Shown here: piece after piece, positions 1-51,445 of the stretch | Layout: every line of letters starts with the position of its first letter | Numbering within the stretch: position 1 is the stretch's first letter | NCBI GenBank assembly: GCA_902594145.1 | Contig: CACJLA010000001.1 | Coordinates: 228,543-292,542, forward strand | Length of the DNA stretch: 64,000 bases | Origin: an uncultured Alphaproteobacteria bacterium | GTDB taxonomy: Bacteria; Pseudomonadota; Alphaproteobacteria; HIMB59 | Reading direction: 5' to 3' | The notes under the pieces: model-generated | The model's database searches: none | Told to the model about the DNA's origin: nothing | The model's input: only the letters and a program-made list of their open reading frames with translations | Translations under genes and position numbers: made by a program

Positions 1-805
1 GATTACTACATTCTTGAAGCCATGGATTTGTTCTTGGGCCGGACACCAATAGACGAGTCTCGAACCACTCACCTCCACTTTCAATGTTAACCTTATGCAT
101 ATAAGACCAAAGTTCTTCCTCCGTCATTCCAGCATGTAATTTTTCTTTCATCAGCCACATTCCTTTTTCAGCTGTTTCTATAGAGGCCTTCATGCATACT
201 AACTCATCTTCTGATTTTATTGACCTTGCAGTTTCAACAATTTTTTGAGCATTTAATATTTCAACATTAAATTGCTTAAGAAGCATTTGAATTCCAACAG
301 GGTCAGATACATCAATAGCTAGTCTGTTGTTATTAGGAGAATGCTCACGCATTAAATCTTGAACAATACCAGCCCAGTGTTTTGCATTTTTATCGACAAA
401 ATTATTTGCAGAAAAAAAATCCCAACTTACAACTTCTCTGATTTCATCAATTGTACAGAGGTGACTAGAGAGGTGTTCACTTTTTGGGTAATCAAATAAA
501 ATTACCTTGTTGTCTGCAGAAATAAACACAAAACGAACCAGTTCATGCATTGTAAATAAGCTCATATTTCTGCTATCAGTTGCATATCTAATATTAATGG
601 GATCAAATAAAATACAAGCTCCCACATTATTTAAACGAAGTTGTTCTTGCACCCTGTTTAATCGGTACATTCTCAGACGGTCAAAATCTATCTTATCTTC
701 ATAAAGCCGAGGTTTATAAATTTGATTTTGATAATTTTGGTTAATAGGTTCGAGATACTTTGGTCCAATTTTACGATCTGCGAATTTGCTGGAAAAATTA
801 CTCAT
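1..805 (-). CDS. M24 family metallopeptidase-like protein, DddP-related (3' part beyond window)
   Basis: This ORF is absent from the supplied track because it runs off the left edge. I read it from an ATG at 803-805 on the minus strand, and it stays open to base 1, giving 268 codons. The N-terminal creatinase-like domain has FDPINIRYATDSRNMSLF, and near the edge comes GGEWFETRLLVSGPRTNPW followed by LQECS. Both are characteristic of the M24 group that includes the DMSP lyase DddP and its non-lyase 'Xaa-Pro peptidase-like' relatives. The metal-binding catalytic half lies outside the window, so lyase and peptidase cannot be separated. The ECS ending looks closer to the non-DddP relatives than to the ECG of DddP as I recall it. 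It lies 14 nt downstream of the methyltransferase on the same strand, next to BHMT and Rieske genes, which fits methylated-osmolyte metabolism. Confidence 0.82.
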   Translation of the reverse strand, partial: MSNFSSKFADRKIGPKYLEPINQNYQNQIYKPRLYEDKIDFDRLRMYRLNRVQEQLRLNNVGACILFDPINIRYATDSRNMSLFTMHELVRFVFISADNKVILFDYPKSEHLSSHLCTIDEIREVVSWDFFSANNFVDKNAKHWAGIVQDLMREHSPNNNRLAIDVSDPVGIQMLLKQFNVEILNAQKIVETARSIKSEDELVCMKASIETAEKGMWLMKEKLHAGMTEEELWSYMHKVNIESGGEWFETRLLVSGPRTNPWLQECSN

Positions 806-819
806 TGATAAACATTAAT

Positions 820-1914
820 TTATTTTATTTTTTTTTCAAACCTCATCATATTATCTTTAAAGTTTAAAGAGAGTTTTTTCGCACTACTACTGATTTTATC
901 CAAAAATTTAACATTTATATTAATCTTATTTTGCTCATTTTCTGATATTTGACCTACATAAGTAATGGCATTCCATAGTCCTAGTGAATTCATGGGAGAA
1001 AATTTTCTTTTTGAAGAAAGAGATATATTTAGGAAAGAGAAAAAGAAACTCGATATATTTACTTTGTATTTTTTTGAAAATTCAGGAATATTTTGTGAGA
1101 TAGTTTTTATAAAAGCTTTTGGGTCATTAAATTGAAATGGATTAATTTTAGGAAAAAATTGTTTTAATATTTTTTTCGTAAAATCATTTCCTGATGAGTA
1201 GATAAAAAATAGTTGCCCTTTTAAATCTAACATCCTTATCAATGGTAATAACACCAGATTCAAAGTTCTTTGATAGGGCGATCTCAATCGAAAGGCCTGT
1301 GAGGCTATAATAAAGTCATAAACCTTGGGGACATCAGTTAATTTTTTAGGAATTAAATGAATTAAAGGTATTTTTTGATCTTTTCTATAAATAACCATAA
1401 AGCTTTTATGTTTAGGTCGTAATATTGTAGAAGATGTATCTTCTTTTATCTCCCAATTTTTTTTAATGACATCACTCATATTCATCAGCTGCTGATTAAA
1501 ACTAAAACTAGAGTTCCCTGAGAGTTCTTTTTTTATAAGCTTACAATCTTTAAACTCTTTCTCATGGATATCTTTGTAAGAGGCATTTGTGATACAAAAA
1601 ACTAAATTTTTATGTTCATAGAACCGATAACCTAAAAAAGCTAGTAAGCTATTGATATCATCAATACTTATTTCTTTTCCTACAACAATAATAGGGTCTT
1701 CGGGAAATTTCTCGTGAGCAGCAGATAAAAGAGTAGAGATTACACTCCCATCACCAGTTCCAGCGTCAAAAATTCTAAAAGCATCTTTGGTTATCTTTGA
1801 TTTTTTTATGTATTTTGCGAGTTCAAAAGCAATTTTACTTTTCTCATTTGTTGAATTGACGAAAGATAAATATTTATCCCTTGAGTCGAAAAAATCCGCT
1901 TTTTTTGCCCCCAC
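820..1914 (-). CDS. Class I SAM-dependent methyltransferase-like protein
   Basis: The 364-residue protein has a glycine-rich SAM-binding motif I near residue 48 (FDAGTGDGSVISTLL) after a short N-terminal helix, as in Rossmann-fold class I methyltransferases. I do not recognise the subfamily or substrate; the central and C-terminal parts are lysine- and phenylalanine-rich with no obvious second domain. The start is GTG (1912-1914), supported by AGGAGAG about 8 nt upstream. It is divergent from the BHMT gene across 95 nt that must hold promoters for both directions, and it is followed by the M24 gene, so those two probably form one transcript. A role in methyl transfer linked to the neighbouring betaine-type genes is inference from position only. 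Confidence 0.7.
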   Translation of the reverse strand: MGAKKADFFDSRDKYLSFVNSTNEKSKIAFELAKYIKKSKITKDAFRIFDAGTGDGSVISTLLSAAHEKFPEDPIIVVGKEISIDDINSLLAFLGYRFYEHKNLVFCITNASYKDIHEKEFKDCKLIKKELSGNSSFSFNQQLMNMSDVIKKNWEIKEDTSSTILRPKHKSFMVIYRKDQKIPLIHLIPKKLTDVPKVYDFIIASQAFRLRSPYQRTLNLVLLPLIRMLDLKGQLFFIYSSGNDFTKKILKQFFPKINPFQFNDPKAFIKTISQNIPEFSKKYKVNISSFFFSFLNISLSSKRKFSPMNSLGLWNAITYVGQISENEQNKININVKFLDKISSSAKKLSLNFKDNMMRFEKKIK

Positions 1915-2009
1915 TGTTGCTCTCCTAAACCTTTAATATCCTATCTTTTTTTAAACTAGAAATGGATTTATTTCCATAATAGAGTTTTATTCATTAAGAG
2001 GAGAGCTTT

Positions 2010-3080
2010 ATGGATTTAATTCAAAGATTAGACAAGGGCCCAGTTTTGTGTGCTGAGGGTTATTTATTTGAAATGGAAAAAAGGGGCTATTTACAGGCAG
2101 GCGCCTTCGTACCAGAAGTAGTTTTAGAGCATCCTGAAGTGGTCACCCAGCTTCATCGAGAATTTATTAGAGCAGGCAGTGATGTTGTTCAAGCGTTCAC
2201 ATATTATGGTCATCGTGAAAAGCTTCGATTGATTGGTAAAGAGGAACTACTTGAACCACTTCAATTAAATGCTTTAAAAATTGCAAAAGATGCTGCAAAT
2301 GAATTTCCTGATTTAGATTTAATGATCGCAGGAGATGTTGCTAACACGAATATATATGATCCCAATAATAAATCCTCATTAGTTGAAGTAGAGAAGATGT
2401 ATGAAGAACAAATTGGCTGGGCAAAGGATGCAGGCGTGGACTTTGTTGTAGCTGAAACAATTCAATGGACTGGTGAAGCGTTGATTGCTCTTAAAAAAAT
2501 AAAAGAGGCAGGATTAATAGCAGTGGTAAATTTAGCTATACCAGCAAATGACCTTACAAGAGATAATGATACCCCGGAGGATGCTTGTAAAAAGTTTGAA
2601 GATAATGGCGCTGAGGTTGTGGGCTTAAATTGTTTTAGAGGACCTTACCATACAATGAAACATTTAATTAAAATACGTGAAAAAGTATCTTGTCATGTTG
2701 CAGGGTTGCCAGTTCCAGTTAGAACTACTGATGAATTTCCCGTTTGGTTTTCTTTGCCAGATGAGGGCTGTGATTGTATTCCTAATAACAGACCTTTTCC
2801 TGTCGGCATTGATAATCTTTACTGTAATCGATATGAAATGGCAGAGTTTGCCAAAGATTGTCAAAGCAAAAATATTAATTTCATTGGAGTATGCTGTGGG
2901 GCAGCCCCACACCATGTAAGAGAAATGGCTGTGGCTTTAGGTCGTAAACCTATCTCCTACAAATATTATCCTGACATGAGCAAACATTTTATCTTAGGTA
3001 CAGATAAAACTTTAAGTAGTATTAATACTCAGCATAAAGATAAGTATAAAGCTGAAGAGAAGTGGCTACCCAAAGGGTAG
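2010..3080 (+). CDS. Betaine-homocysteine S-methyltransferase family protein
   Basis: The 356-residue cytoplasmic protein belongs to the zinc-dependent homocysteine S-methyltransferase family (TIM barrel). All three zinc-binding cysteines can be placed: Cys208 in GLNCFRG and Cys295-Cys296 in GVCCGAAPHH, with spacing like animal BHMT. Family members move a methyl group from glycine betaine, or in some bacteria from proline or hydroxyproline betaine, DMSP or S-methylmethionine, to homocysteine to make methionine. It starts at ATG with an AAGAGGAG Shine-Dalgarno sequence and opens a four-gene plus-strand run with an FAD oxidase, a DHDPS-family lyase and a Rieske oxygenase. That company points to a quaternary amine such as a betaine as methyl donor, but the exact donor cannot be read from sequence. 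Confidence 0.88.
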   Translation: MDLIQRLDKGPVLCAEGYLFEMEKRGYLQAGAFVPEVVLEHPEVVTQLHREFIRAGSDVVQAFTYYGHREKLRLIGKEELLEPLQLNALKIAKDAANEFPDLDLMIAGDVANTNIYDPNNKSSLVEVEKMYEEQIGWAKDAGVDFVVAETIQWTGEALIALKKIKEAGLIAVVNLAIPANDLTRDNDTPEDACKKFEDNGAEVVGLNCFRGPYHTMKHLIKIREKVSCHVAGLPVPVRTTDEFPVWFSLPDEGCDCIPNNRPFPVGIDNLYCNRYEMAEFAKDCQSKNINFIGVCCGAAPHHVREMAVALGRKPISYKYYPDMSKHFILGTDKTLSSINTQHKDKYKAEEKWLPKG

Positions 3081-3097
3081 TAACTATTTAGAGTGTT

Positions 3098-4435
3098 TTG
3101 ACTACTTATTCATCTAGCAAATTCCCATCAGAAATCGGCGAAAATGGCTGGTTGAAAACAAGTGATAGTCAATATTTTGCCCCCACTCTTGATCGAGATC
3201 ACACCTGTGACTGGCTTGTTATTGGTAGTGGCTTTGCAGGAATATCTGCTGCAAAACGACTAACAGAGCTTCGTAGTGGAGACAAAATAATTCTAATTGA
3301 TGCGATTGGTATTGGTGAAGGAGCAGCAGGCCAGAATAGTGGTTTCATGATCGATGTTCCTCATAATATAAATGCAAAAGGCGATTATCTAAGTTCAATT
3401 AAAAAAGATAAAGACTCAATTTCTCTAAATCGTGAGGCTATAGAATTTTCATCACATATGGTTGAAGAGTACGATATTCCCCAAAGTGTTTATAATAAGA
3501 TTGGAAAGTTAAATGGTGCAGCAACACCCAAAGGTATTTCTTTCAATAAAGATTATAAAAAACAATTAGAGGCATTAGGAGAGGATTATCATTCTTTGGA
3601 TTCCAAACAGATGTCTGAAATTACTGGTTCCAATTATTATGAACAAGGAATTTATACTCCTGGAACAATTCTAATTCAGCCTGCTGAATATATCAAAAGA
3701 ATAGTTGAAAGACTCAGTGATAAAATCAAAGTTTTTCAAAATAGTCCTATAAAAAAAATTGAAAAAAAAAATAATAGTTGGGACGCCTATACTTCTCAAG
3801 GAAAAATAATTTCTAAAAATATTATTTTTGCAGTTAATGGGCATATAACAAATTTTGGATTTTACAAAAATCAACTTATTCATATTTTTACTTACTCCTC
3901 TCTTACTAAAAAATTTGATGATAGTATTTTAAAAAGTGACCCCTCATGGGGTTTGACCTCTTCAAATCCTATTGGCACCACTGTTAGAAAAATTAAGGTT
4001 AGTGAAAATCAATCTAGACTTCTCATTAGGAATACTTGGAGATGCCGCCAAAATCTTGAGTCACTTAATTCTGATTTTGAGAACTCCTGTCAAAAACACC
4101 GAAAAAGTTTTATAGGACGCTTTCCTAATTTAAATGAAATACCATTTGAGTTTAGTTGGGGAGGGCGAGTTTGTCTTTCTTTAAACGGCGCTCCTGCTTT
4201 TGGTGAGTTAGATGAAAATCTCTTTTCTGCTTGTTGTTCAAATGGATTGGGAACAGTTAAAGGAACCTTGGCAGGAAAACTAATCATTGATAAGGCATGT
4301 AAATCAAATTCATCTCAACTTGATAAGTATGAAAATATTGAAAAACCATCTATTTTGCCGCCTAATTTTTTAACCCAAATAGGGGCAAACTTAAGAATTA
4401 AATCTCGAGAAATGACAGCTGGTAGGGATTTATAA
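3098..4435 (+). CDS. FAD-dependent oxidoreductase, DAO family
   Basis: The 445-residue protein has an N-terminal dinucleotide-binding fold around residue 40 (WLVIGSGFAGISAAKRL) followed by GAAGQNSGFM, the usual layout of the D-amino-acid oxidase/PuuB/OrdL group. A C-terminal glycine-rich FAD region (CCSNGLGTVKGTLAGKL) is intact. Such enzymes oxidise secondary or N-methylated amines (sarcosine, N-methylproline, D-hydroxyproline, gamma-glutamylputrescine) to imines. The start is TTG at 3098 with only a weak GAG-type ribosome site, 17 nt after the BHMT stop, so translation is probably coupled to BHMT. Its place between BHMT and a Rieske oxygenase suggests action on a partially demethylated amine; the substrate is inferred only. 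Confidence 0.83.
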   Translation: MTTYSSSKFPSEIGENGWLKTSDSQYFAPTLDRDHTCDWLVIGSGFAGISAAKRLTELRSGDKIILIDAIGIGEGAAGQNSGFMIDVPHNINAKGDYLSSIKKDKDSISLNREAIEFSSHMVEEYDIPQSVYNKIGKLNGAATPKGISFNKDYKKQLEALGEDYHSLDSKQMSEITGSNYYEQGIYTPGTILIQPAEYIKRIVERLSDKIKVFQNSPIKKIEKKNNSWDAYTSQGKIISKNIIFAVNGHITNFGFYKNQLIHIFTYSSLTKKFDDSILKSDPSWGLTSSNPIGTTVRKIKVSENQSRLLIRNTWRCRQNLESLNSDFENSCQKHRKSFIGRFPNLNEIPFEFSWGGRVCLSLNGAPAFGELDENLFSACCSNGLGTVKGTLAGKLIIDKACKSNSSQLDKYENIEKPSILPPNFLTQIGANLRIKSREMTAGRDL

Positions 4436-4492
4436 AAGAAATGATAACCAATTATGATACATTGGATAGCTAAACAAGGAGATTACGGGAAA

Positions 4493-5392
4493 GTGACTAT
4501 TTTAAAAGGTATCTATGGAGCTATGTGTACCCCATTCCAAGATAGCGGAGAGGGAATAGATCTAAAGCGTTACCACTTTCATATTGATGATTTATTAGAA
4601 GCGGGTGTACATGGTTTAGTCTTATGTTCTGGCACAGGTGAATACGCTTATCTAACAGATGATGAGAAACAAACTTTAATTACAGAGGGTGTAAAACATA
4701 TTAATGGCAGGTGCCCTACGATAGCACAAACTACTGCACTTAGTACTAATGAGTGTATCAACAAAGCAAGGGCTGCAGAAGATGCAGGTGCAACTGCAAT
4801 TATGGTTATGCCGCCTTTTCTAGAACCGCCCTCAGAACTTGGAGTTATTTATCACTATGAGGCTATAGCAAAAGCAGTGAGAATTCCTATCGTAATGTAT
4901 AATGTTCCACAGCAAGCCGCACCCCTCACCGAAGACACTTATCGTAAATTATTAGCAATAGAAAATTTAGATTATATTAAAGACAGTTCAGGAGACTTTT
5001 TAAATTTGCAAAAATTTACCAAGACTGGAGGAAGAGTTTTCTGTGGTATAGACTCCTTTGCACCATTTGCATTAATGAGTGGATGTACAGGGATGATTTG
5101 GGGAGCTGTAAATTTTATGCCCCATGAATGTGTTAATCTATTTAATTTAATAGAAGAAAAAAAATATCAAGAAGCTATGGATCTATGGAAATTGATGGAG
5201 CCAGTCTGTTTATGGCTAGGAGGAAATAGACACGATGTGGACTACCTTACTGGGATTAAAGCAGCAGCGAATTTATCAGGTAGAGACATGGGACCACCCC
5301 GTAAACCCCTATTGAATGTAGCAGCATCTGCACGCCATGATTTAAGAATTGCTATGTCAAAACTACCCATAAACCATATAGATTTAACGTGA
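4493..5392 (+). CDS. DHDPS/NAL-family aldolase or deaminase (DapA superfamily)
   Basis: This is a TIM-barrel Schiff-base lyase. From the chosen start it has 299 residues, normal for the family. It shows the GTGEYAYLT loop, Tyr136 in YNVPQQA and the Schiff-base lysine Lys163 in YIKDSSGD. The loop after Tyr (NVPQQA) lacks the NVPxRT arginine that grips the carboxylate in true DapA, so lysine biosynthesis is unlikely. The track start at 4454 has no ribosome site; the GTG at 4493 follows AAGGAG by 11 nt and sits just before the conserved GIYGAMCTPF, so I prefer it. In the betaine-type operon it could be a pyrroline-hydroxycarboxylate deaminase (HypD-like) or a keto-acid aldolase; this is inference. 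Confidence 0.85.
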   Translation: MTILKGIYGAMCTPFQDSGEGIDLKRYHFHIDDLLEAGVHGLVLCSGTGEYAYLTDDEKQTLITEGVKHINGRCPTIAQTTALSTNECINKARAAEDAGATAIMVMPPFLEPPSELGVIYHYEAIAKAVRIPIVMYNVPQQAAPLTEDTYRKLLAIENLDYIKDSSGDFLNLQKFTKTGGRVFCGIDSFAPFALMSGCTGMIWGAVNFMPHECVNLFNLIEEKKYQEAMDLWKLMEPVCLWLGGNRHDVDYLTGIKAAANLSGRDMGPPRKPLLNVAASARHDLRIAMSKLPINHIDLT

Positions 5393-5411
5393 TCGTAAAA
5401 AAGAATTAATA

Positions 5412-6602
5412 ATGAGAGAACTTGAAGTTGACCAAAATGATATTGATCAAAACTATGTATCTATCCTTCAAAAATTAAAGCAATGTATTAAACCAATACA
5501 CGAAGCAAAAGGCATCCCTAATGAATATTATACTAAAACTGAATATTTTGATTTAGAGAAAGAAATTCTTTTTAACAAAGGTTGGTTTGCCGTAGGCTTC
5601 GTTAAAGACCTACCTCAACTTGGCTCTGTTAAACCGGTCAACTATTTTAAAAATCCTCTTTTATTAATTCGTAGTATCCAAGATAAAAAAATACGAGTTT
5701 TTCAAAATGTATGTCGACATCGAGGTATGACCCTCATTAAAGACCCCAAAGTTCTGAAGGGAGCAATTCGCTGTCCTTACCATTCTTGGTGCTACAAGCA
5801 AACTGGAGAAGTTGTTGCCACCCCTCATATTGGAGGGCCAGGTTATAATTATCACTCCGATATTAATAAAAGTGAATTATCATTAATTGAGGTTCGCTCT
5901 CACGTTTGGAGAGATGTAATATTTGTGAATCCTGATGGGAGGGCGAAACCCTTTGAAGAGGTTCATAAATCTTTATTAGAACGATGGTCCTCTTTTGATC
6001 AACCTATGCATTCAGATATGAGCGACTCATCTTTTGAGCTTGAGGTCAAAACTAATTGGAAACTAGCAGTCGAAAATTATTTAGAGTCCTACCACCTCCC
6101 TTGGATTCACCCAGGTTTAAATAGTTATTCCAAGTTAGAGGATCATGAAAATATTGTTAAATATGATCATTATTCTGGACAAGTTAGTAATAAATATATT
6201 CCAAGATATTCAACAGGAAAACAATTTCAAAATTTTAAAAATTTAAGCTCTGAATGGAACAGCAAAGGAGAATATATTGTTTTATTTCCAAATTTAATAT
6301 TGGGTGTTCAAAAAGATCATGTTTTTAATCTCATTATTGAGCCAATTGGGTGTGATCAAATCAAAGAGCATGTTGAAATCTATTATTCAGACCCTTCTAT
6401 GTTGTCTGATGAATATCAGCAAACACGCTTAGAGAATACTAAGCTTTGGAGAACCGTATTTGAAGAAGATATTTTTGTAGTAGAGGGAATGCAGCAAGGC
6501 CGTTATGCGGAAGACTTTGATGGAGGGCGCTTTTCACCAGTAATGGATGAGCCAACTCATGTCTTTCACGATTGGTACGCTAGAAAGATGTTAAAAGTTT
6601 AG
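5412..6602 (+). CDS. Rieske non-heme iron oxygenase, alpha subunit
   Basis: The 396-residue protein has the full Rieske [2Fe-2S] signature: Cys101 and His103 in CRHRG, and Cys121 and His124 in CPYHSW. The mononuclear iron site is visible as His228 and His233 in NYLESYHLPWIH, with a likely third ligand Asp353 in FEEDIF. This layout matches the ring-hydroxylating oxygenase group that includes the quaternary-amine N-demethylases (GbcA, CntA, stachydrine demethylase). It is the last gene of the BHMT-DAO-DHDPS run, 19 nt after the lyase. No reductase lies in this operon; the FNR-like gene at 7161 is a possible electron source but belongs to a different transcript. N-demethylation of a betaine is the most economical inference; aromatic substrates are less likely in this setting. 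Confidence 0.88.
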   Translation: MRELEVDQNDIDQNYVSILQKLKQCIKPIHEAKGIPNEYYTKTEYFDLEKEILFNKGWFAVGFVKDLPQLGSVKPVNYFKNPLLLIRSIQDKKIRVFQNVCRHRGMTLIKDPKVLKGAIRCPYHSWCYKQTGEVVATPHIGGPGYNYHSDINKSELSLIEVRSHVWRDVIFVNPDGRAKPFEEVHKSLLERWSSFDQPMHSDMSDSSFELEVKTNWKLAVENYLESYHLPWIHPGLNSYSKLEDHENIVKYDHYSGQVSNKYIPRYSTGKQFQNFKNLSSEWNSKGEYIVLFPNLILGVQKDHVFNLIIEPIGCDQIKEHVEIYYSDPSMLSDEYQQTRLENTKLWRTVFEEDIFVVEGMQQGRYAEDFDGGRFSPVMDEPTHVFHDWYARKMLKV

Positions 6603-6697: not shown

Positions 6698-7081
6698 TTA
6701 TTTTTTTAATTCAAACCCTGCTTTTACCCAAGCATTTGTTCCACCAGATAAGTTAGAGACATCTTTATAACCCATATCTTGAAGAGTTTTAGTTGATAAA
6801 GTTCCTTGACCACCCACTCCACAATAAACGACAATTTTTTTCTCAGGATCAAGCTCATCTTTTCTGAGAGGGTTGTCTGGTCTTTGATCAGCGTGAAATT
6901 CCAACATGTCTCTTGGAACATGAACTGATCCTTCTATTTGACCTTCAACCTCGATGGCATCTTTTGATCGAACATCAACAAGGATAATTTCTTCATTATC
7001 TAATTGCTGTTTTAATTCTTCTGGACTCACTGATTTGATTTCAGCATTTGCTTCATCTAAAAGCTCTGGAAAAGTCTTCAT
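6698..7081 (-). CDS. Rhodanese-like domain protein
   Basis: This is a single-domain rhodanese of 127 residues with the VDVRS entry motif, the IEGSVHVP strand and the active-site cysteine in VVYCGVGGQG, followed by GGTNAWVKAG. The family carries sulfur as a persulfide for thiosulfate detoxification or sulfur transfer. The loop after the cysteine (CGVGGQG) lacks the arginine common in thiosulfate sulfurtransferases, so another acceptor or a regulatory role is possible. The gene is monocistronic, convergent with the Rieske gene and divergent from the FNR-like gene across 79 nt. A GAGGAG-type ribosome site precedes the ATG. There is no signal peptide, so it should be cytoplasmic. Confidence 0.87.
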   Translation of the reverse strand: MKTFPELLDEANAEIKSVSPEELKQQLDNEEIILVDVRSKDAIEVEGQIEGSVHVPRDMLEFHADQRPDNPLRKDELDPEKKIVVYCGVGGQGTLSTKTLQDMGYKDVSNLSGGTNAWVKAGFELKK

Positions 7082-7160
7082 TTATTCATTTCTCCTCAAT
7101 AACTATTGATAATATATAACTGTTTGATCTTAAATTTAATATATTACTATAATATAAGAC

Positions 7161-8195
7161 ATGAATACTATTGTAAATCCAGGATCTAGTCACGAAACAG
7201 ATGTAGTGATAATTGGTGCTGGTCCTTGCGGTCTTTTCCAAGTATTTGAGCTGGGCCTTTTAGATATGAAATCTCATCTCATTGACAATCTAGACAAGAT
7301 TGGTGGACAATGTGCTGAGCTTTATCCTGATAAGAACTTATATGATATTCCAAGCAGACCAGCTATCACGGGCCAAGAGTTAACCGATGATTTAATTAAA
7401 CAAGCTGAACCTTTCAACCCTACTTATCACCTAAACCAATTAACCTCAAAAATTGAAATTAATGAAAATGATATTTTAGTAGAAACAGATAAAGGCACCT
7501 CAATTAAGTGCAAGTCTGTCGTTATTGCTGCCGGGGCAGGAAGCTTTGTTCCAAGGAAACTTCCAGCAGAAGGTGCTGATCAATTAGAAAATAAGAATAT
7601 CTTTTACTCAGTCAAAAAAAGAACAGACTTTCAAGACAAGAATATTTTAATTATTGGTGGAGGTGACTCCGCTTTAGATTATGTTATGGGATTTCAAGGT
7701 ATCGCTAAAAAAGTATCACTGGTTCATAGAAGAAAAGAATTTAAAGGTGTCCAAGACTCAGTAAATAAAGTTATGTCATTGGTTGATAAGGGTGAGGTAA
7801 GCTTCAATATGGGAAGCCTTAAAAAAGTTACTCTCAATGAAAATGGTAAAGTAACAGCAACTCTTGATGATGATAAAATAATTAATGACATTGATGCAAT
7901 ATTTCCATTTTTTGGTTTAAAAATAGAATTAGGCCCAATCGCAGAGTGGGGATTAAACTTAGAAAAGAATCATATTTCTGTTAACACAGAAAACTTCGAA
8001 ACTTCAGTACCGAAAATTTTTGCTGTGGGAGATATTTGTATTTACCCTGGTAAGTTAAAATTGATATTAAGTGGTTTTCATGAAGCTGCACTTGCTGCAA
8101 AAAAAATGTTTGAGTACTGTCATAGTGATAAAAAGTATGTTTTTAGGTACACTACCTCCTCAAGCGATCTCCAAAAAAAACTTGGAGTTAAGTAA
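7161..8195 (+). CDS. Ferredoxin-NADP+ reductase type (YumC/TrxB-like) flavoprotein
   Basis: The 344-residue protein has an FAD-binding site at the N-terminus (DVVIIGAGPCGLFQVFELG), the GGQCAELYP region, an internal NAD(P)H site (ILIIGGGDSALDY) and the C-terminal FAD contact FAVGDICIYPGKLKLI. There is no redox-active CxxC in the NADPH domain, so it is a thioredoxin-reductase-like ferredoxin-NADP reductase and not a thioredoxin reductase. It moves electrons between NADPH and ferredoxin or flavodoxin. It is divergent from the rhodanese gene, and a secreted dehydrogenase follows 11 nt later. It might reduce the neighbouring Rieske oxygenase, but such FNRs are usually housekeeping enzymes, so that link is speculative. 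Confidence 0.88.
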   Translation: MNTIVNPGSSHETDVVIIGAGPCGLFQVFELGLLDMKSHLIDNLDKIGGQCAELYPDKNLYDIPSRPAITGQELTDDLIKQAEPFNPTYHLNQLTSKIEINENDILVETDKGTSIKCKSVVIAAGAGSFVPRKLPAEGADQLENKNIFYSVKKRTDFQDKNILIIGGGDSALDYVMGFQGIAKKVSLVHRRKEFKGVQDSVNKVMSLVDKGEVSFNMGSLKKVTLNENGKVTATLDDDKIINDIDAIFPFFGLKIELGPIAEWGLNLEKNHISVNTENFETSVPKIFAVGDICIYPGKLKLILSGFHEAALAAKKMFEYCHSDKKYVFRYTTSSSDLQKKLGVK

Positions 8196-8206: not shown

Positions 8207-9280
8207 TTGTTTAAAAATAAAGTTTTATTTTTTTTAATAATATTTTTTCTATTTACCTTTAGAGCAAATTCAATTGTCTTAGAAACGACTCCTATTAAAT
8301 TAAATTCTCCATGGGGTATGAGCTGGCTAAATTCTGAGGAGCTATTAATTACACAAAAAACAGGAGAAATTTATAAAGTTAACACAAAAAATTTATCTAA
8401 AAGTGAAATAACACATGAAATTCCCTCAACTTTTTTTGGTCAAGGGGGATTGCTTGACATTGTAACTGAAAATAACATTGTATGGATAACTTGTTCGATT
8501 AAAAAAGGAAGAAAATATACAACCGCAGTTTATCGCGCTGAACTTAAAAATAATAAGCTTGTCAACGAAGAACTTATATATGAAGCTCTTCCCTATTTTG
8601 ATAACGGAAAGCATTTTGGTTCGAGAATAGAAATTCTTGATGATTATCTCTTTGTTAGCATCGGTGAAAGAGGTAAAGGAATGATTGCCCAGGACCCTTC
8701 AAATTCTATTGGTTCGATAATTAGAATTCATAAAAATGGAGAATATCCTGAGGATAATCCTTTTTTAACAAATAATGAATGGTTGCCAGAGTTATTTCAA
8801 ATCGGTGTTAGAAACCCACAAGGGATGACATTAGATCCTCAAACAAATTCTATTTATATATCTAATCATGGTCCTAAAGGGGGTGACTTCATTGGAAAGG
8901 TCGTAGGCGGTTCCAATTTCGGGTGGAAAAAAATTGGATGGGGCGGAACCAATTATTCTGGCACTAAAATAGGTGATGGTAATGCATGGGAGCCTGGTTT
9001 TATAAAACCTGATTTTATCTGGGTGCCTTCAATAGCAGTTAGTGGTATAAAATTTTATCAAGGAGAGGCTTTCCCAGAGTGGCAAAATTCACTCTTGGTA
9101 TCTTCTCTCAAATTTCAATATTTGTCTGTGTTGCACAGAAAAGGTAACAAATTCGTAAAAGAGGAAGTTATATTTAAAGATAAAATTGGAAGAGTTAGAG
9201 ATATAGAAATAGATCAATTAGGTAATATTTATATTATTACTGATGAAACAGACTCAAATTTATTTGTTTTAAAACCTTAG
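8207..9280 (+). CDS. Secreted PQQ-dependent sugar dehydrogenase-like protein (GSDH family)
   Basis: The 357-residue protein opens with a lysine-containing hydrophobic signal segment (FFLIIFFLFTF) and continues as a glucose/sorbosone dehydrogenase beta-propeller. Recognisable blades include SPWGMSWLN, GSRIEILDDYLFVSIGERG, GVRNPQGMTLDP and ISNHGPKGGD. This matches the YliI/Asd soluble aldose dehydrogenases, which oxidise sugars in the periplasm with PQQ. No PQQ synthesis genes are in the window, so the cofactor may come from elsewhere in the genome or from the environment. The start is TTG at 8207, 11 nt after the FNR-like gene. Its end overlaps the stop of the convergent FGGY kinase by 4 nt. 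Confidence 0.85.
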   Translation: MFKNKVLFFLIIFFLFTFRANSIVLETTPIKLNSPWGMSWLNSEELLITQKTGEIYKVNTKNLSKSEITHEIPSTFFGQGGLLDIVTENNIVWITCSIKKGRKYTTAVYRAELKNNKLVNEELIYEALPYFDNGKHFGSRIEILDDYLFVSIGERGKGMIAQDPSNSIGSIIRIHKNGEYPEDNPFLTNNEWLPELFQIGVRNPQGMTLDPQTNSIYISNHGPKGGDFIGKVVGGSNFGWKKIGWGGTNYSGTKIGDGNAWEPGFIKPDFIWVPSIAVSGIKFYQGEAFPEWQNSLLVSSLKFQYLSVLHRKGNKFVKEEVIFKDKIGRVRDIEIDQLGNIYIITDETDSNLFVLKP

Positions 9281-10569
9281 CTTTGTTCTCTTTTTGTTAC
9301 TAAGTTTGCAATACCTTTACATATACCTAGGTGATCGTCCTCCACGATAACAGGATCAGCCCAGTTTTTTTCAATCGTTTTTAAAAATTTTTTATTATTT
9401 GCAAAAGGACCTGAGCAAATGATTGGTCCTTTCGATCCTATCGCTTGCAATCCAATCAATGTTTGATTAGCAAGTATTTCAGAAACTAAAGTCTCTGTTC
9501 TCGAGGTCTCAATATCTTGAAAATCAACTTCTTTTTCAGAGTCCTTATAAACAAAACTTGCTTTTTCAATATTTTCAAAATTTTTAATACAAATATCTGA
9601 TGCATTAAGCTCTCTATGATTAATTGAAGATCTACTCTTTTGTTTAATCTGTCTCTCATAAATCTTGCCTGCAGGAAATCTGTAGTTGGGTACTAAATTT
9701 CCAAAACAATCATTGCTAATCATTAAACCTGTTTGTTCAGAAATATTTGCATTATCAGAGCCTAAAGCAAAAATAGTAACCCAAGTACCTGTTGATAATA
9801 TCGAGCAAGGCAATTTTTTATTTAAAAATGCTGAGACTAAAGCTAAGCTTGAGTCATGGGCACCACAATAAACTGATATATTTTGAGTTAAGCCAGTTTT
9901 TTTGGATATATCTTTTCGCAAATTTCCAATCACACTTGCCGCAGATCTAATTGGTGGATATTGTACTTGCGATCCAACACCAAAGGCTTCTAGGCCAACA
10001 AATTCTTTTTGTCTAATTTTCCACAAATCTGAATGGCAACTAGCATAGCTAATTTCACTTACGGTAACACCAGTTAACCAATAGCTCCAATATTGTGGCC
10101 AAAATAAAATTTGATCCACTTTTGCAAACTCTTTGGGAAAATATTTGCTCTGCCAATACAATTGAGCACCTAGATTTAGACCTAGATCCATGCGTGGACT
10201 ACCAGTTAGATCAAATGTTGGTCTGACCTCATCATACTCTGCTTTGAGTTGATCTGGTCCCTCAAATTCATAGTCGAGAACAGGAAGAGCTAATTCTCCT
10301 TTTGTCATCAATGCCATACATGCACCATGTGTTGATGTAAATATTGAGTCAACTATGTATTTTTTTGCAAGGTTGCTCAGAGAATTGATAATAAATTCTT
10401 TTAAGGATTCTATGTCAAAATGAGGATACAAAGAGTCAGTCAAAATAATATTTTCTGTTTGGAAAACTTCTAGCTCTTTTAACTTATGAGAGTCAAATAG
10501 GATGACTTTAGCGTGTGTCTTGCCTATATCTAATACAGCTATATTGTTTCTGATATGAGATTTTTTCAT
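9277..10569 (-). CDS. FGGY-family carbohydrate kinase
   Basis: The 430-residue protein has the actin-like ATPase fold of FGGY kinases: N-terminal phosphate loop VLDIGKTHAKV, the substrate-domain motif STHGACMAL, and the ATP-domain segment STGTWVTIFALG with CGAHDSS just before it. The closest local relative is the rhamnulokinase-like protein at 47994: both share an NxGxQxYW-type segment and ISYxxCHxxLW. It should phosphorylate a ketose or deoxyketose. Its start overlaps the stop of the class II aldolase by 4 nt, so the two form a kinase-aldolase pair acting in sequence. The sugar is not identifiable; rhamnulose- or fuculose-like substrates are the obvious candidates. Confidence 0.85.
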   Translation of the reverse strand: MKKSHIRNNIAVLDIGKTHAKVILFDSHKLKELEVFQTENIILTDSLYPHFDIESLKEFIINSLSNLAKKYIVDSIFTSTHGACMALMTKGELALPVLDYEFEGPDQLKAEYDEVRPTFDLTGSPRMDLGLNLGAQLYWQSKYFPKEFAKVDQILFWPQYWSYWLTGVTVSEISYASCHSDLWKIRQKEFVGLEAFGVGSQVQYPPIRSAASVIGNLRKDISKKTGLTQNISVYCGAHDSSLALVSAFLNKKLPCSILSTGTWVTIFALGSDNANISEQTGLMISNDCFGNLVPNYRFPAGKIYERQIKQKSRSSINHRELNASDICIKNFENIEKASFVYKDSEKEVDFQDIETSRTETLVSEILANQTLIGLQAIGSKGPIICSGPFANNKKFLKTIEKNWADPVIVEDDHLGICKGIANLVTKREQS

Positions 10570-11651
10570 GGAATTTTTTTATTCTGTTTTTGTCGATAAT
10601 GTTCCGCTTCCCAATTCAAAAGAAAGCTAGTTTCATTATCATTTAGATATTGAAGATCTGCATTTTCTGGAATTAAACATAACAAATCATGTACACAGCG
10701 AATTATTTCTAAAGTTCCTCTTAAGGCATCGTTACGAATGATGACCCCCTGCCCAGCTAAAACCACACATGAATTAAATGGTAGAGGAGCCATGGAAATT
10801 TTATTAAGTTTTTCAATTAAATCATCTTCATTTGGATTAAGAACTAGAAGTTTTGGTCCAAGAAAAACTAAAAAATCAGGAAGAAGGACCCCATTTGTGA
10901 GCTTATCAATCCACGGCTGATGAAAAGCGAGATTATTAATTAACTCATCTTCACAAAACTTAAATACAGTTTTTTTTAGATCAACAACTTTATCACTTGA
11001 TTTAATATAACTTTTAACGAAGGTTTTTTTATGTAAATTTTTTAGGCGATCTCGAACATCCTGGTATAAATTTCTTATCTCCTCTAAATCGTTGCCACAA
11101 ACTATGAGACCATGATTTTCAAGTATAAATACATTGTCTTTTGCAGATTTAATCTGCATTAATTTATAACTTAGTTCAACACCAGGCGTAACATAAGGTA
11201 TAAATTTCCAATTAAGATCTGAGAGTATTTCTTCAAATTTCATTTGAGAATTTTTTTGTACGGCTAATGCATTAACATTTATATCATGTGTATGAAAAAT
11301 AAATTTGAAATCAAGAGCAGCATGCATAGGCGCCTCAACCGATGGACGAAGACCCTCTGGTGAAATTTTTAAGTCAATTGATTTTAAAATGTCATCGTAA
11401 GAACAGTTATTGTCTTTGAGAGCATCCTTAATTTTAGAAATACTTACTGGAACCATCAACTCTGAGGAGTGCGCATCAACAAGCCATTTACCAGATGCTT
11501 TTATCCACATTGTATCACCTTCTTTGAGCGAGGTATTTCCACCAGCTGCTTGAACCATAGTTCGATCTAGACCTATAGCTTCGGAGTATTTGAGAAAAAG
11601 TTCATATTCTTTTGCTGGAAAATCATTATCTTTAATAATCATAAAACTCAA
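10566..11651 (-). CDS. Class II aldolase/adducin family protein
   Basis: The 361-residue protein has the class II aldolase core with a glycine-rich phosphate site (QAAGGNTSLKEG), an acidic residue in SVEAPMH, the zinc-binding HTHDIN and a second histidine in ENHGLIVCG. It is longer than stand-alone L-fuculose- or L-rhamnulose-1-phosphate aldolases (about 215-275 residues) and resembles the aldolase half of the aldolase/SDR fusion at 49364 without the dehydrogenase. The C-terminal 130 residues may be an accessory domain of that aldolase type. Translation is coupled to the FGGY kinase (4 nt overlap). It is divergent from galE across 114 nt. It probably cleaves the kinase product to DHAP and an aldehyde; the substrate is unknown. 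Confidence 0.83.
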   Translation of the reverse strand: MSFMIIKDNDFPAKEYELFLKYSEAIGLDRTMVQAAGGNTSLKEGDTMWIKASGKWLVDAHSSELMVPVSISKIKDALKDNNCSYDDILKSIDLKISPEGLRPSVEAPMHAALDFKFIFHTHDINVNALAVQKNSQMKFEEILSDLNWKFIPYVTPGVELSYKLMQIKSAKDNVFILENHGLIVCGNDLEEIRNLYQDVRDRLKNLHKKTFVKSYIKSSDKVVDLKKTVFKFCEDELINNLAFHQPWIDKLTNGVLLPDFLVFLGPKLLVLNPNEDDLIEKLNKISMAPLPFNSCVVLAGQGVIIRNDALRGTLEIIRCVHDLLCLIPENADLQYLNDNETSFLLNWEAEHYRQKQNKKIP

Positions 11652-47993: not shown

Positions 47994-49364
47994 TTAAGAA
48001 TGTCTAAATAACTCTTTTTTATAAAGATTCTGCTCCCAATTTTTGTAAATAGCTTGAAGAGATTGATTTTGATACTTTTTTATAACAACTGTTTGTAATT
48101 TATTTATTTTCTTAATATTAAATAAATTTGTAGCTCCAAGAGTAGTTCCTATTTCTCTCTTATTTTTTAGAACTTTTTGTTTTTTTCTCAGTGATGAAAG
48201 TATTTTCATAATTGTAATATTTTTAGTAATTGGTCCATCAAGAATTATAGTATTTGAGGATCTCATTTGGTTTAAACAAAAATTAATTACAAACGAAATG
48301 TATAAACAAATTAGATAATAAATTTGACCTTTGTTTAGCCCTTCATAAAAACCAATATTAATTTTATTTATTGAAAATCCTCCGCCAGATGCATAACTAG
48401 GATAAATCAAATAGTTATGAAAACTAAAATTTTTAATAGCTCTAGTTTTATTTGAAATTTTAAATACTCCCATTAAATGATCATATTCCCTTCCACCCAT
48501 AAATCTCATAGTTGGAACAGGTTTTCCAAAAACATCAATATTAGCTAGCATGTCAAGACTAGGGTTAAGGTTTTTTAAAGGTGTTTTTTGATTAAATATG
48601 ATGTACCAAGTTCCCGTTGAAACCAAGGTAAAATTTTTGATATCTGAATTTTTAAAATATAAATAGGACGCATTACTATCATGAACACCATTTATAATTT
48701 TTAAATTCGATCCACCAATTTTTCTTTGTCCTATCGTATCCCATGCCTTCCTTATTTTTGGAAATTTCTTTTCTAATTTAATTTTTTTTACAAAAGAGGA
48801 GAGTTTATTTCTCTTAAAATCCCACAAATGCGTATGACAGCCTACATATGATATCTCAGATGAAAAACTAGAAGTGAGTTTCCAAACAATATACTGAGGG
48901 TAATTAAGGATGTACTTTGTTTCTTTGATAAGTTTTTGTTTTTTTTTATACAAATAGTAAATTTGCTGACCTATGTTAAGTCCATTTTCTAAAAAAGGGG
49001 AGAAACTTTCATTAAATTTAGGTGCTATTTTCTTATAACCATTAAATAATTTATCAAATTTATATTCATAATCAGTACAAGCTAAAAGCTCTTTATCATC
49101 ATAACTTATAAGAGCAATAGAAGTTCCATGAGCAGTGCAAACAAATTTGTCTAAATCGTGTTTTCTTCCAATGTATATAATTTTTTTTAGAGCCCACTCA
49201 AATATAGAATTTGAATTTAAAATTTTTATACCATGTCTATAAATATTTTTTTGTTTTGTTTTAAAAAATTTTATTGTCTTATTATTTAAACTATCAACAA
49301 ATGTTAACTTAACGTTTGTTTTACCAATATCGAGGACAATATTTAGTTTCTTAGAAGACACCAT
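47994..49364 (-). CDS. rhaK: FGGY-family kinase, probable rhamnulokinase
   Basis: The 456-residue FGGY kinase has phosphate loop VLDIGKTNVKLTF, AHGTSIALI and the ATP-domain VSTGTWYIIF, with the late GTTLGATNL. It is unusually lysine-rich and more divergent than the FGGY kinase at 9277, with which it shares ISYxxCHxxLW. Between the aldolase/dehydrogenase fusion (1 nt overlap) and lldD, opposite RhaSTPQ and RhaI, it is best read as L-rhamnulokinase. Assignment rests on context more than on sequence, since FGGY specificity is hard to see by eye. Confidence 0.8.
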   Translation of the reverse strand: MVSSKKLNIVLDIGKTNVKLTFVDSLNNKTIKFFKTKQKNIYRHGIKILNSNSIFEWALKKIIYIGRKHDLDKFVCTAHGTSIALISYDDKELLACTDYEYKFDKLFNGYKKIAPKFNESFSPFLENGLNIGQQIYYLYKKKQKLIKETKYILNYPQYIVWKLTSSFSSEISYVGCHTHLWDFKRNKLSSFVKKIKLEKKFPKIRKAWDTIGQRKIGGSNLKIINGVHDSNASYLYFKNSDIKNFTLVSTGTWYIIFNQKTPLKNLNPSLDMLANIDVFGKPVPTMRFMGGREYDHLMGVFKISNKTRAIKNFSFHNYLIYPSYASGGGFSINKINIGFYEGLNKGQIYYLICLYISFVINFCLNQMRSSNTIILDGPITKNITIMKILSSLRKKQKVLKNKREIGTTLGATNLFNIKKINKLQTVVIKKYQNQSLQAIYKNWEQNLYKKELFRHS

Positions 49365-51445
49365 TATCTAGTGAATGATGTTATATTACCTCCATCGACA
49401 TTGATAATATTTCCTGTTGATTTTTTTGATTTGGAACTTGCAAAGAAGTAAATTCCTTCGGCTATATCTTCTGGAAGAATGCTTACCTTTAGTAAACTTC
49501 TGTTTTTGTAAAATTCTTCAACTTGATTAACACTAATTTTATTACTGATTGCTCTTTGTTTGGTCCACTCACCTTGCCATATTTTTGAGTTTTGAATAAC
49601 AGCATCAGGATTTACAACATTTGAACGTATTTTATGACTTGAACCCTCCAGCGCAATAGATCTAGAAAGGTGAAGCAAAGAACTTTTTGCTACACTATAA
49701 GCCGATGCTCCCTTTGATGCATTTAAGCTATTTTTGCTTGAGACAAATATAATTGAGCCTCCATTTTTTTGATAAATCATTTTTTGATATACCTCACGAC
49801 TAATTAAAAAACATCCTTTTGATAAGATATCCATATTTTTATCCCAAAGTTTTGAAGATGTTTTTTCAAATAGTGCTGCGGATGCAAATCCTGCATTTGC
49901 AACTAGTATATCGATACCACCAAAAGCATTTACACTATTTGATACAGCTCTCTTAACATCTTGTTCGCTAGTAACATCCATCAATATAGAATGAACAACA
50001 TCTTTGCCAAATTCTTTACTAAACTCCTCGTGTTTCGTCTTAAGTGCTTTTTTATCTATATCAGTTAAAATTACACAACAACCCTCACTAAGGAATTTTT
50101 TTGCAGTAGCTGACCCAATTCCCCCAGCCGCACCTGTAATAAGAGCTACTTTTCCAGCTAACTCTTTTTCTGGAGGCATTCTTCTTAATTTTGCTTCCTC
50201 CAATTCCCAATATTCAATTCTAAATGCTTCTTTTTCAGTAAGTCCTGTGTATTTACTTATACCCTCCGCGCCTTTCATCACATTCATTGCATTACAAAAA
50301 AACTCACTTGAGATACGGGCAGTCGATTTGTTTTTTGCAAAAGACATCATTCCATACTCAGGTATTAGAATTATTACTGGGTAGGGGTCCCTAAGGTTAG
50401 GAGATCCTTTGCTTTTGTTTCTATTATAGTACTTTGTGTATGCTTCCTTATATTTTTCTAAATATGTTTTAACGATACTGTGAATTTTATTTTCATTTTT
50501 AATTAAATCAGACAATGGAGGTAAAACCATAGGCAATCTTTTTGTTCTGAGAAAATGGTCAGGGCAAGAAGTACCAATTGCAGCAACTTTTTTTAAATTT
50601 GTTGAGTTAACAAATTCTAAGGCGATATCTGATTTGTCTAAGTGAAGAATTTTTGAGTTTTCATTGGAGAGACTTCCTCGAATAGTTGATATTAATTTTA
50701 TCTCGAATTCAGGGTTTGATTTATTCTTGTACATGGGCTTTCCAAATGAATATTTTTTAATAGAGCTATTTAAATACACTTGAGCTCTTTTTATTAAGTC
50801 TACAGAATTTGAATAACACTCTTTACTAGTATTCGACCATGTAAATAATCCATGATGACCAAGAACTATTCCAATAATACCTTTATTTTTATGAATTAAG
50901 TTTTCCATCTTTAATCCTAGGTCAAAACCAGGTCTTTGCCAATCAATCCAGCCAACACTATCTCCATAAATCTTTTTAATAATATCTCTTCCATTTTTCA
51001 TTGTTGCTAAAGCAATAATTGAGTCCGGATGAGTGTGATCTACTTCAGGGTAAGGCACATAGGCATGAAGTGGTGTGTCAATACTGGCAGCCCTTGGATT
51101 ATTATTAAACGTACACATCGGATAATATCCAACCATTTCATCCTCATGATTAAAGCCCCTGTAAATATTTTTAAGACTATTAAATTTATCCAGATAAAGA
51201 CTTGCAAAACCATCTTTTCTAATTGAACCTAAGTCTCCTCCTGACCCTTTAACATATAAAATCTTTTCATTTTTTTTTGTTATAGGATCTTTCACAGAAA
51301 TCTTGGAGGAGGTGTTTCCTCCACCAAAGTTGGTAACTTTTAAATCTCCCCCTAATAAGTTCGATCTTACTATTAGCTGATCAAGTTTAGATAATTTATT
51401 AAATTTATTATCCCATTTATTTATTACGTTTTTTTGAAATCTCAT
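49364..51445 (-). CDS. rhaD: Bifunctional rhamnulose-1-phosphate aldolase/L-lactaldehyde dehydrogenase (aldolase-SDR fusion)
   Basis: This is a two-domain protein of 693 residues. Residues about 20-400 are a class II aldolase with FGGGNTSSK, the zinc-site DHTHPDSI and VLGHHGLF. Residues about 430-693 are a complete short-chain dehydrogenase with cofactor site ITGAAGGIGSATAKK, NAGFAS, Ser in FVSSKNS and Tyr-x3-Lys in YSVAKSS. Such fusions (RhaEW in the comparative-genomics literature, RhaD in rhizobia) cleave L-rhamnulose-1-phosphate to DHAP and L-lactaldehyde and oxidise the latter to L-lactate. It opens the minus-strand rhamnose transcript, divergent from rhaS across 168 nt. Confidence 0.92.
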   Translation of the reverse strand: MRFQKNVINKWDNKFNKLSKLDQLIVRSNLLGGDLKVTNFGGGNTSSKISVKDPITKKNEKILYVKGSGGDLGSIRKDGFASLYLDKFNSLKNIYRGFNHEDEMVGYYPMCTFNNNPRAASIDTPLHAYVPYPEVDHTHPDSIIALATMKNGRDIIKKIYGDSVGWIDWQRPGFDLGLKMENLIHKNKGIIGIVLGHHGLFTWSNTSKECYSNSVDLIKRAQVYLNSSIKKYSFGKPMYKNKSNPEFEIKLISTIRGSLSNENSKILHLDKSDIALEFVNSTNLKKVAAIGTSCPDHFLRTKRLPMVLPPLSDLIKNENKIHSIVKTYLEKYKEAYTKYYNRNKSKGSPNLRDPYPVIILIPEYGMMSFAKNKSTARISSEFFCNAMNVMKGAEGISKYTGLTEKEAFRIEYWELEEAKLRRMPPEKELAGKVALITGAAGGIGSATAKKFLSEGCCVILTDIDKKALKTKHEEFSKEFGKDVVHSILMDVTSEQDVKRAVSNSVNAFGGIDILVANAGFASAALFEKTSSKLWDKNMDILSKGCFLISREVYQKMIYQKNGGSIIFVSSKNSLNASKGASAYSVAKSSLLHLSRSIALEGSSHKIRSNVVNPDAVIQNSKIWQGEWTKQRAISNKISVNQVEEFYKNRSLLKVSILPEDIAEGIYFFASSKSKKSTGNIINVDGGNITSFTR

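Follow-up and report, generated by a model that had tools for sequence, protein, structure and literature searches.

What does a short run of genes in a streamlined ocean bacterium degrade, and is the run still whole? The locus lies in a 64,000-nucleotide stretch (the window) of contig CACJLA010000001.1 (positions 228,543 to 292,542, forward strand, assembly GCA_902594145.1) from an uncultured alphaproteobacterium of the HIMB59 lineage, and it encodes a betaine:homocysteine methyltransferase (BHMT) paralogue, a DAO-family oxidase, a DHDPS-family lyase and a Rieske oxygenase. A sequence-only reading had proposed an island for catabolism of betaines of the proline or hydroxyproline type. We read positions 2010-6602 as the surviving part of an operon for degrading a betaine that is quaternary and probably cyclic, likeliest 4-hydroxyproline betaine or its epimers (probability about 0.6). 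The source genome (G000; 1.1 Mb, 79.9% complete) is that of a streamlined marine alphaproteobacterium. It was compared with 52 genomes of its genus and, class-wide, with 385 genomes of Alphaproteobacteria. The sister records are ocean single-cell genomes, and most compared genomes are incomplete single-cell genomes or metagenome-assembled genomes (MAGs), so that the absence of a gene is weak evidence.

The gene run and its absent partners

The four open reading frames do lie in one run, as had been claimed, and Pfam agreed with their families. The island was found in 14 of the 52 genus genomes, and the lyase and the island BHMT both occur in those same 14. The order M24 protein, S-adenosylmethionine (SAM)-dependent methyltransferase, BHMT, oxidase and lyase is kept wherever an island contig spans it (G030 is without this SAM methyltransferase), and because this order is conserved among island-bearing genomes the run is not a product of chance.

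The window does lack the epimerase and semialdehyde dehydrogenase that the sequence-only reading could not see, and the search elsewhere that it had advised located both at the same site in sister genomes. An aldehyde dehydrogenase (ALDH) gene sits between the lyase and Rieske genes in 10 genomes with intact loci, and an 11th copy is cut by a contig end. In three genomes (G045, G001 and G002) the Rieske gene is preceded by an enolase-superfamily gene for an HpbD-type 4-hydroxyproline-betaine 2-epimerase. Against the solved HpbD of Paracoccus and Pelagibaca its product scored 515 and 492 bits (515 bits to 4e8g/4izg/4j1o), the next enolase-family structure reaching 209, and the QIK and MK..TRIGG motifs with the catalytic lysines were aligned. 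The presence of HpbD and ALDH at this site in sisters indicates that both genes belong at the locus. HpbD was found neither in the window nor in the rest of the roughly 80% complete source genome, whose cluster has no epimerase and no alcohol dehydrogenase (ADH).

The same module recurs far outside the genus. Rhodobacterales, rhizobia, marine MAGs and Acidimicrobiales all yielded oxidase and lyase genes together, mostly with the ALDH, and their usual neighbours were genes for MttB methyltransferases, HpbD, betaine transporters or N-methylproline demethylase (gene calls at GC-rich loci were based on tblastn). Silicimonas/Boseongicola MAGs carry lyase-ALDH-DAO and then MttB, several with an SDR pair; the Acidimicrobiales order is MttB-lyase-ALDH-DAO, and one further locus (L051) holds MttB, HpbD, lyase and DAO. 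Sinorhizobium mexicanum has DAO-lyase, a ProV-type ATP-binding cassette (ABC) gene, MttB, an ADH, two SDRs and HpbD inside 15 kb. S. americanum combines DAO-lyase-SDR with a glycine-betaine ABC transporter (ProVWX) and a DMGDH-like gene. In Rhizobium ACO-34A the lyase-DAO pair adjoins an N-methylproline demethylase (73% to HpbA) and proline-betaine ABC genes. Leisingera plasmids show the order MttB-HpbD-SDR-SDR-DAO-ALDH-lyase, followed by a Rieske gene whose product is 53-55% identical to the window protein, an ALDH, an ADH and a second enolase-family gene, with ProVWX in between on one plasmid; in L. methylohalidivorans tblastn detected HpbD only as fragments. Class-wide, lyase relatives (6 of 385 genomes) and HpbD (1 of 385) were too sparse for a co-occurrence test.

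Because the module recurs beside MttB, HpbD, betaine transporters and N-methylproline demethylase, a role in betaine catabolism is well supported by context, and with HpbD and ALDH inside the sister operons the function first proposed from the sequence was supported. Judged from this context, the locus is best read as an operon that degrades a quaternary amine, and this reading is quite likely. The best single guess at the substrate, a cyclic betaine of the hydroxyproline or proline type, follows from the linkage to HpbD and HpbA and stands at about even odds.

Features of the island and its right flank, in window coordinates
Feature	Position	Strand	Basis or remark
DddP-related M24/creatinase-fold protein, candidate island member	2..805	-	Open reading frame cut by window edge
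Divergent SAM-dependent methyltransferase-like protein, candidate island member	820..1914	-	No Pfam or NCBIfam match
BHMT paralogue (Zn-dependent betaine:homocysteine methyltransferase type)	2010..3080	+	Duplicate of housekeeping copy on G000 contig C5
DAO-family flavin adenine dinucleotide (FAD) amine oxidase	3098..4435	+	Pfam DAO 5e-29; always adjoins lyase
DHDPS-family Schiff-base lyase, distinct subfamily	4454..5392	+	Residues, tree, Pfam
Deletion scar: last four codons and stop (IDLT*) of lost ALDH, fused in frame to lyase gene	5378..5392	+	15-mer identity
Rieske oxygenase, quaternary-amine/CntA-like type	5412..6602	+	Rieske CxH..CxxH; E-x3-E-x2-H-x4-H site
Conserved right flank: rhodanese (-), TrxR-like ferredoxin/flavodoxin-NADP reductase (+)	6698..8195		Island boundary

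The aldehyde dehydrogenase was lost by deletion

A 1.5-kb deletion removed the ALDH from the source genome. The 15-mer at the scar, ATAGATTTAACGTGA, is identical to the end of the ALDH gene at the sister locus L032, where it reads ...TGG ATAGATTTAACGTGA. The lyase genes of the window and of G023 both end ...AACCAT ATAGATTTAACGTGA, so the scar is common to the two genomes, and in both the conserved lyase tail TTNNRLVWRDWQEEKDWLIQSSIKRN is lost. G002 is also without the ALDH at this site, but its lyase ends differently. The gene set of the source lineage is partly dismantled, and the in-frame scar provides an example of a streamlined genome trimming a catabolic pathway.

Between the window and G023, the ratio of non-synonymous to synonymous substitution rates (dN/dS) was 0.02 for BHMT, 0.07 for the oxidase, 0.19 for the lyase and 0.28 for the Rieske gene, a contrast drawn from small counts (22 non-synonymous to 23 synonymous versus 7 to 41; Fisher p = 0.0006). 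In a pair of genomes that keep the ALDH, the contrast pointed the same way but was milder (odds ratio 1.9 versus 5.6). These values are a hint, not proof, of relaxed constraint on the lyase and Rieske genes following the loss of the ALDH.

Such signs raise the question of whether the operon of the source lineage is decaying and no longer serves its original function, as the deleted ALDH, the replaced lyase C-terminus, the lack of epimerase and ADH in the cluster and the elevated dN/dS of two genes would have it. Against this, every remaining frame is open both in the window genome and in G023, BHMT and the oxidase are under strong constraint, and a second PuuC-type ALDH, 47% identical to the island enzyme, lies on contig C4 of G000 and is present in G023, the sole other scar-bearing genome. 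We consider such a loss of function unlikely, and the most serious of the alternatives. Within the genus the contig C4 ALDH occurs only in G000, G023 and G013; that it could stand in for the deleted enzyme is speculation. Its surroundings (L078:10850-17921) comprise NitT-type ABC genes, a DHDPS paralogue, an enolase-superfamily dehydratase-like gene and a 2-hydroxyacid dehydrogenase gene.

Candidate demethylating enzymes

The island BHMT matched Pfam S-methyl_trans (1.3e-38), its best solved relatives being human and rat BHMT (154 bits), and it keeps all three zinc cysteines (217, 299 and 300). Among the betaine-binding residues of the human enzyme, with residue numbers counted from the printed alignment, Glu159 and Tyr77 are kept and Asp26 is replaced by Glu, Trp44 by Phe and Tyr160 by Thr; the substitutions relative to human BHMT are largely common to the housekeeping copy as well. 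The two copies are 71% identical; they hardly differ up to about residue 115 and diverge over the C-terminal two thirds, a pattern compatible with a new substrate. G030 carries both in tandem (L024:6475-8597), again near-identical over the first ~115 residues and ~30% different over the remainder, as if by gene conversion. In other lineages the demethylase beside the module is usually a corrinoid MttB; MttB was found in 0 of the 52 genus genomes, where the duplicated BHMT precedes the oxidase gene instead.

The Rieske protein matched Pfam Rieske (8.6e-18) and Ring_hydroxyl_A (7.4e-35) and, at the bridging position, carries Glu like YeaW, where HcaE has Asp. In the tree it joined an 11-member clade (support 100/99) with roseobacter (Leisingera/Phaeobacter) proteins, apart from HpbB1, YeaW/CntA and HcaE, and in Leisingera genes of this type lie 8-13 kb from HpbD. 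It scored 115 bits against the GbcA equivalog of NCBIfam (cut-off 670), so that tree and profile both speak against its assignment to a known betaine demethylase of the HpbB1, CntA or GbcA type. The separate clade also speaks against an aromatic-ring dioxygenase of the HcaE type, HcaE being the sole aromatic reference. In several loci the Rieske homologues lie near DMGDH-like, MTHFR-like or reductase genes, which suggests general N-demethylation, and the window enzyme is a probable N-demethylase.

BHMT and Rieske enzyme could also serve glycine betaine and dimethylglycine catabolism, with the oxidase and lyase belonging to another amine or amino-acid pathway that shares the operon. Demethylation of glycine betaine is the presumed reaction of SAR11-type BHMT (PMC12478193), Rieske homologues lie near DMGDH-like genes at L105 and L110, and the island-free G009 has a Rieske gene beside its housekeeping BHMT. 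Yet the source genome already possesses a housekeeping BHMT gene adjoining a DMGDH-like gene (contig C5, L082), island BHMT and lyase are inherited together in 14 of 14 genomes, and glycine betaine, which has no chiral centre, needs neither an epimerase nor a Schiff-base lyase. This explanation is decidedly unlikely.

Oxidase, lyase and dehydrogenase

The lyase matched Pfam DHDPS (1.5e-47) and probably starts near 4493, its residues 1-14 being disordered in the structure model and missing from relatives. In alignment with DapA, the Schiff-base Lys161 and the catalytic Tyr133 are kept, whereas Thr44 is replaced by Gly, Tyr107 by Leu and the substrate-binding Arg138 by Gln, in agreement with the earlier observation that the DapA arginine is missing; the score against the curated DapA model was under its cut-off (160.9 versus 206 bits). 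In the tree, the lyase and its relatives form a clade of 15 (support 100/99) separate from HypD (S. meliloti and P. pantotrophus) and from E. coli DapA, YagE and NanA; several long branches make the deep joins unsafe. HypD and HypH references were chosen by their position in annotated or known hydroxyproline clusters, not by assay. By blastp, HypD (27-28% identity) was the least similar reference (60 bits, versus 97 for YagE), DapA too being more similar. When lyase, oxidase and dehydrogenase were compared by tblastn with the hyp cluster of S. meliloti, there were almost no matches; the statement drawn from it, that the lyase is without any similarity to HypD, was dropped given the blastp identity, in favour of a different subfamily. 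A fold search with the lyase model returned only DHDPS-type structures (21-29% identity) and was uninformative on function.

The fold neighbours of the oxidase model (predicted local distance difference test score 71) were glycine oxidase, N-methyltryptophan oxidase, sarcosine oxidase, DMGDH and proline dehydrogenase, which would place it in the amine-oxidising DAO family and nothing finer; phmmer against the PDB gave no match. It is 31-38% identical to the oxidases that adjoin the lyase in other lineages and matched S. meliloti HypO only at chance level by blastp. The ALDH of the sister genomes is of the PuuC type and 24% identical to HypH, and no HypH-type dehydrogenase was found in the cluster.

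These comparisons bear on a suggestion of the sequence-only reading, namely the Paracoccus-type hydroxyproline-betaine pathway in its canonical form (HpbD, Rieske HpbB1, HypO, HypD and HypH), in which the lyase would be HypD. HpbD in three sister genomes, the same superfamilies in the same logical order and the Leu at DapA position 107 that lyase and HypD have in common would all fit. Against it, the lyase falls outside the HypD clade and is closer to YagE or DapA, the oxidase and ALDH belong to subfamilies other than HypO and HypH, the Rieske protein does not group with HpbB1, and the proline racemase/hydroxyproline epimerase family was found in only 1 of the 52 genus genomes. The canonical pathway is therefore improbable here. 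In the phylogenies that had been recommended, neither lyase nor Rieske protein grouped with HypD or CntA, and they stood apart from YagE/NanA and from the aromatic HcaE, respectively.

A proposed route and the points against it

The gene set most likely encodes a lower pathway, as yet uncharacterised, for a cyclic betaine. The sequence of oxidase, DHDPS-family enzyme and ALDH follows a logic established for hydroxyproline (PMC4113996), and the order epimerase, demethylase, oxidase, lyase and dehydrogenase parallels the known pathway. The sequences show which genes are present and in what order, that they are inherited together, that the ALDH was deleted, which active-site residues are kept and that the module is repeatedly linked to betaine genes; we infer the substrate, step order and products as follows. 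In sister strains, HpbD would epimerise the betaine. BHMT would move one N-methyl group to homocysteine, the Rieske enzyme would strip N-methyl groups as formaldehyde, or both. The resulting secondary or tertiary amine would be oxidised to an imine by the DAO-family flavoenzyme, and the lyase, through a Schiff base, would deaminate or cleave the product, giving an aldehyde acid. From this acid the PuuC-type ALDH would make a central metabolite, namely 2-oxoglutarate should the chemistry resemble that of HypD. With the ALDH lost and neither epimerase nor ADH in its cluster, the source genome must either make partial use of the module or borrow a dehydrogenase, perhaps the one on contig C4.

A broader proposal is more tentative, and we put it somewhat below even odds: oxidase, PuuC-type ALDH and non-HypD lyase would form a cyclic-betaine lower pathway spread through Alphaproteobacteria and Acidimicrobiales with interchangeable MttB, Rieske and BHMT enzymes, and HIMB59-type bacteria would have swapped the B12-dependent MttB for a duplicated Zn-BHMT, coupling betaine use directly to methionine synthesis.

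Several observations weigh against the operon as a cyclic-betaine pathway. Lyase, oxidase and ALDH are not orthologous to the characterised HypD, HypO and HypH; coming from other subfamilies, they have either converged on the same reactions or perform different chemistry. The canonical pathway offers no role for the SDR/MDR dehydrogenases found alongside HpbD in other lineages, which favours a different route. The lyase neighbouring the Leisingera genes belongs to another DHDPS subfamily (28% identity, Arg138 kept), and Rhizobium phaseoli and R. etli are counter-examples in which lyase-DAO has no betaine genes nearby. Rieske homologues occur in 48 of the 385 Alphaproteobacteria genomes and, in the inspected loci, near HpbD only for the roseobacter ones. 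Finally, no betaine transporter was found in the HIMB59-type island, and the upstream ABC genes look to be of the sugar or glycerol-phosphate type.

Flanking genes

The SAM methyltransferase had no match in Pfam or NCBIfam. The full M24 product (428 amino acids; Pfam Creatinase_N) scored 377.8 bits against the DddP equivalog of NCBIfam (cut-off 600) and was ruled out as DddP. The M24 gene adjoins BHMT also in the island-free G009 (L080). In the island-free G044 (L101:7733-10189) the SAM methyltransferase gene adjoins the Rieske gene without the BHMT-DAO-lyase block; the island was either inserted between them or excised in G044. As for the flavour of dimethylsulfoniopropionate (DMSP) and betaine metabolism ascribed to these two genes, the M24 protein is DddP-related, though not DddP, and as both genes occur without the island they are candidate members of it. 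That the whole run consists of chance neighbours of unrelated function is very improbable, since the core genes are co-linear in sisters and lyase-DAO (often with ALDH) recurs in distant taxa including Actinomycetota, which refutes chance for BHMT-DAO-lyase-ALDH, though not for the SAM methyltransferase and M24 genes. At another locus (L113:8044-11732, G406), a true DddP gene (742 bits) directly adjoins HpbD (66%) and an MDR dehydrogenase gene (56%), so that a DMSP lyase gene is linked to a locus that holds a betaine epimerase.

On the right flank, the TrxR-like reductase possibly serves the Rieske enzyme. Further into the window, positions 12826-34899 hold one sugar ABC cassette after another, together with genes for a glycosidase and galactose kinase/uridylyltransferase and genes of the glucosamine type, a content also reported for AEGEAN-169. 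These sugar ABC and galactose genes, the small genomes and the two families in the order would fit the HIMB59/AEGEAN-169 clade. At 49364-51445 a class II aldolase domain is fused to an SDR dehydrogenase and adjoins an FGGY-like kinase, and positions 9277-11651 hold another aldolase-kinase pair. Scanning the window for Rfam families and tRNAs gave no matches.

Significance and comparison with known systems

Proline and hydroxyproline betaines occur in marine plankton, and hydroxyproline betaine in radiolarian holobionts (PMC11965087). A search of two HIMB59/AEGEAN-169 genome papers (PMC10308909 and PMC10734472) turned up no description of betaine use. If our reading is correct, an abundant ocean bacterium would have a new source of nitrogen, carbon and methyl groups, and the oxidase-lyase-dehydrogenase module would consist of enzymes without a characterised close relative. 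Island BHMT, lyase and oxidase would then form a marker gene set for tracing in metagenomes; the Rieske gene was dropped as a specific marker because of its wide occurrence.

Compared with the hydroxyproline(-betaine) pathway of Paracoccus, Pelagibaca and Sinorhizobium (HpbD, HypO, HypD and HypH), the island has HpbD in sister operons, DAO, DHDPS and ALDH superfamilies in matching roles and demethylation upstream. It differs in that its oxidase, lyase and dehydrogenase are non-orthologous, its methyltransferase is BHMT or MttB, its Rieske protein is of another clade and its relatives carry SDR/MDR genes. The island copy resembles SAR11-type and human BHMT in its zinc ligands and in part of the betaine site (Glu159 and Tyr77), but it is duplicated, stands in an operon with oxidase and lyase genes and departs at positions 26, 44 and 160. 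The MttB superfamily (MtgB, MtpB and MtcB) occupies the adjoining position in relatives of the operon and is absent from the genus set. With the Rieske oxygenases CntA/YeaW, GbcA and HpbB1 the island protein has the motif in common, with the bridging Glu as in YeaW, and it lies in its own roseobacter clade. The M24 protein belongs to the same broad family as the DMSP lyase DddP, but scores below its cut-off.

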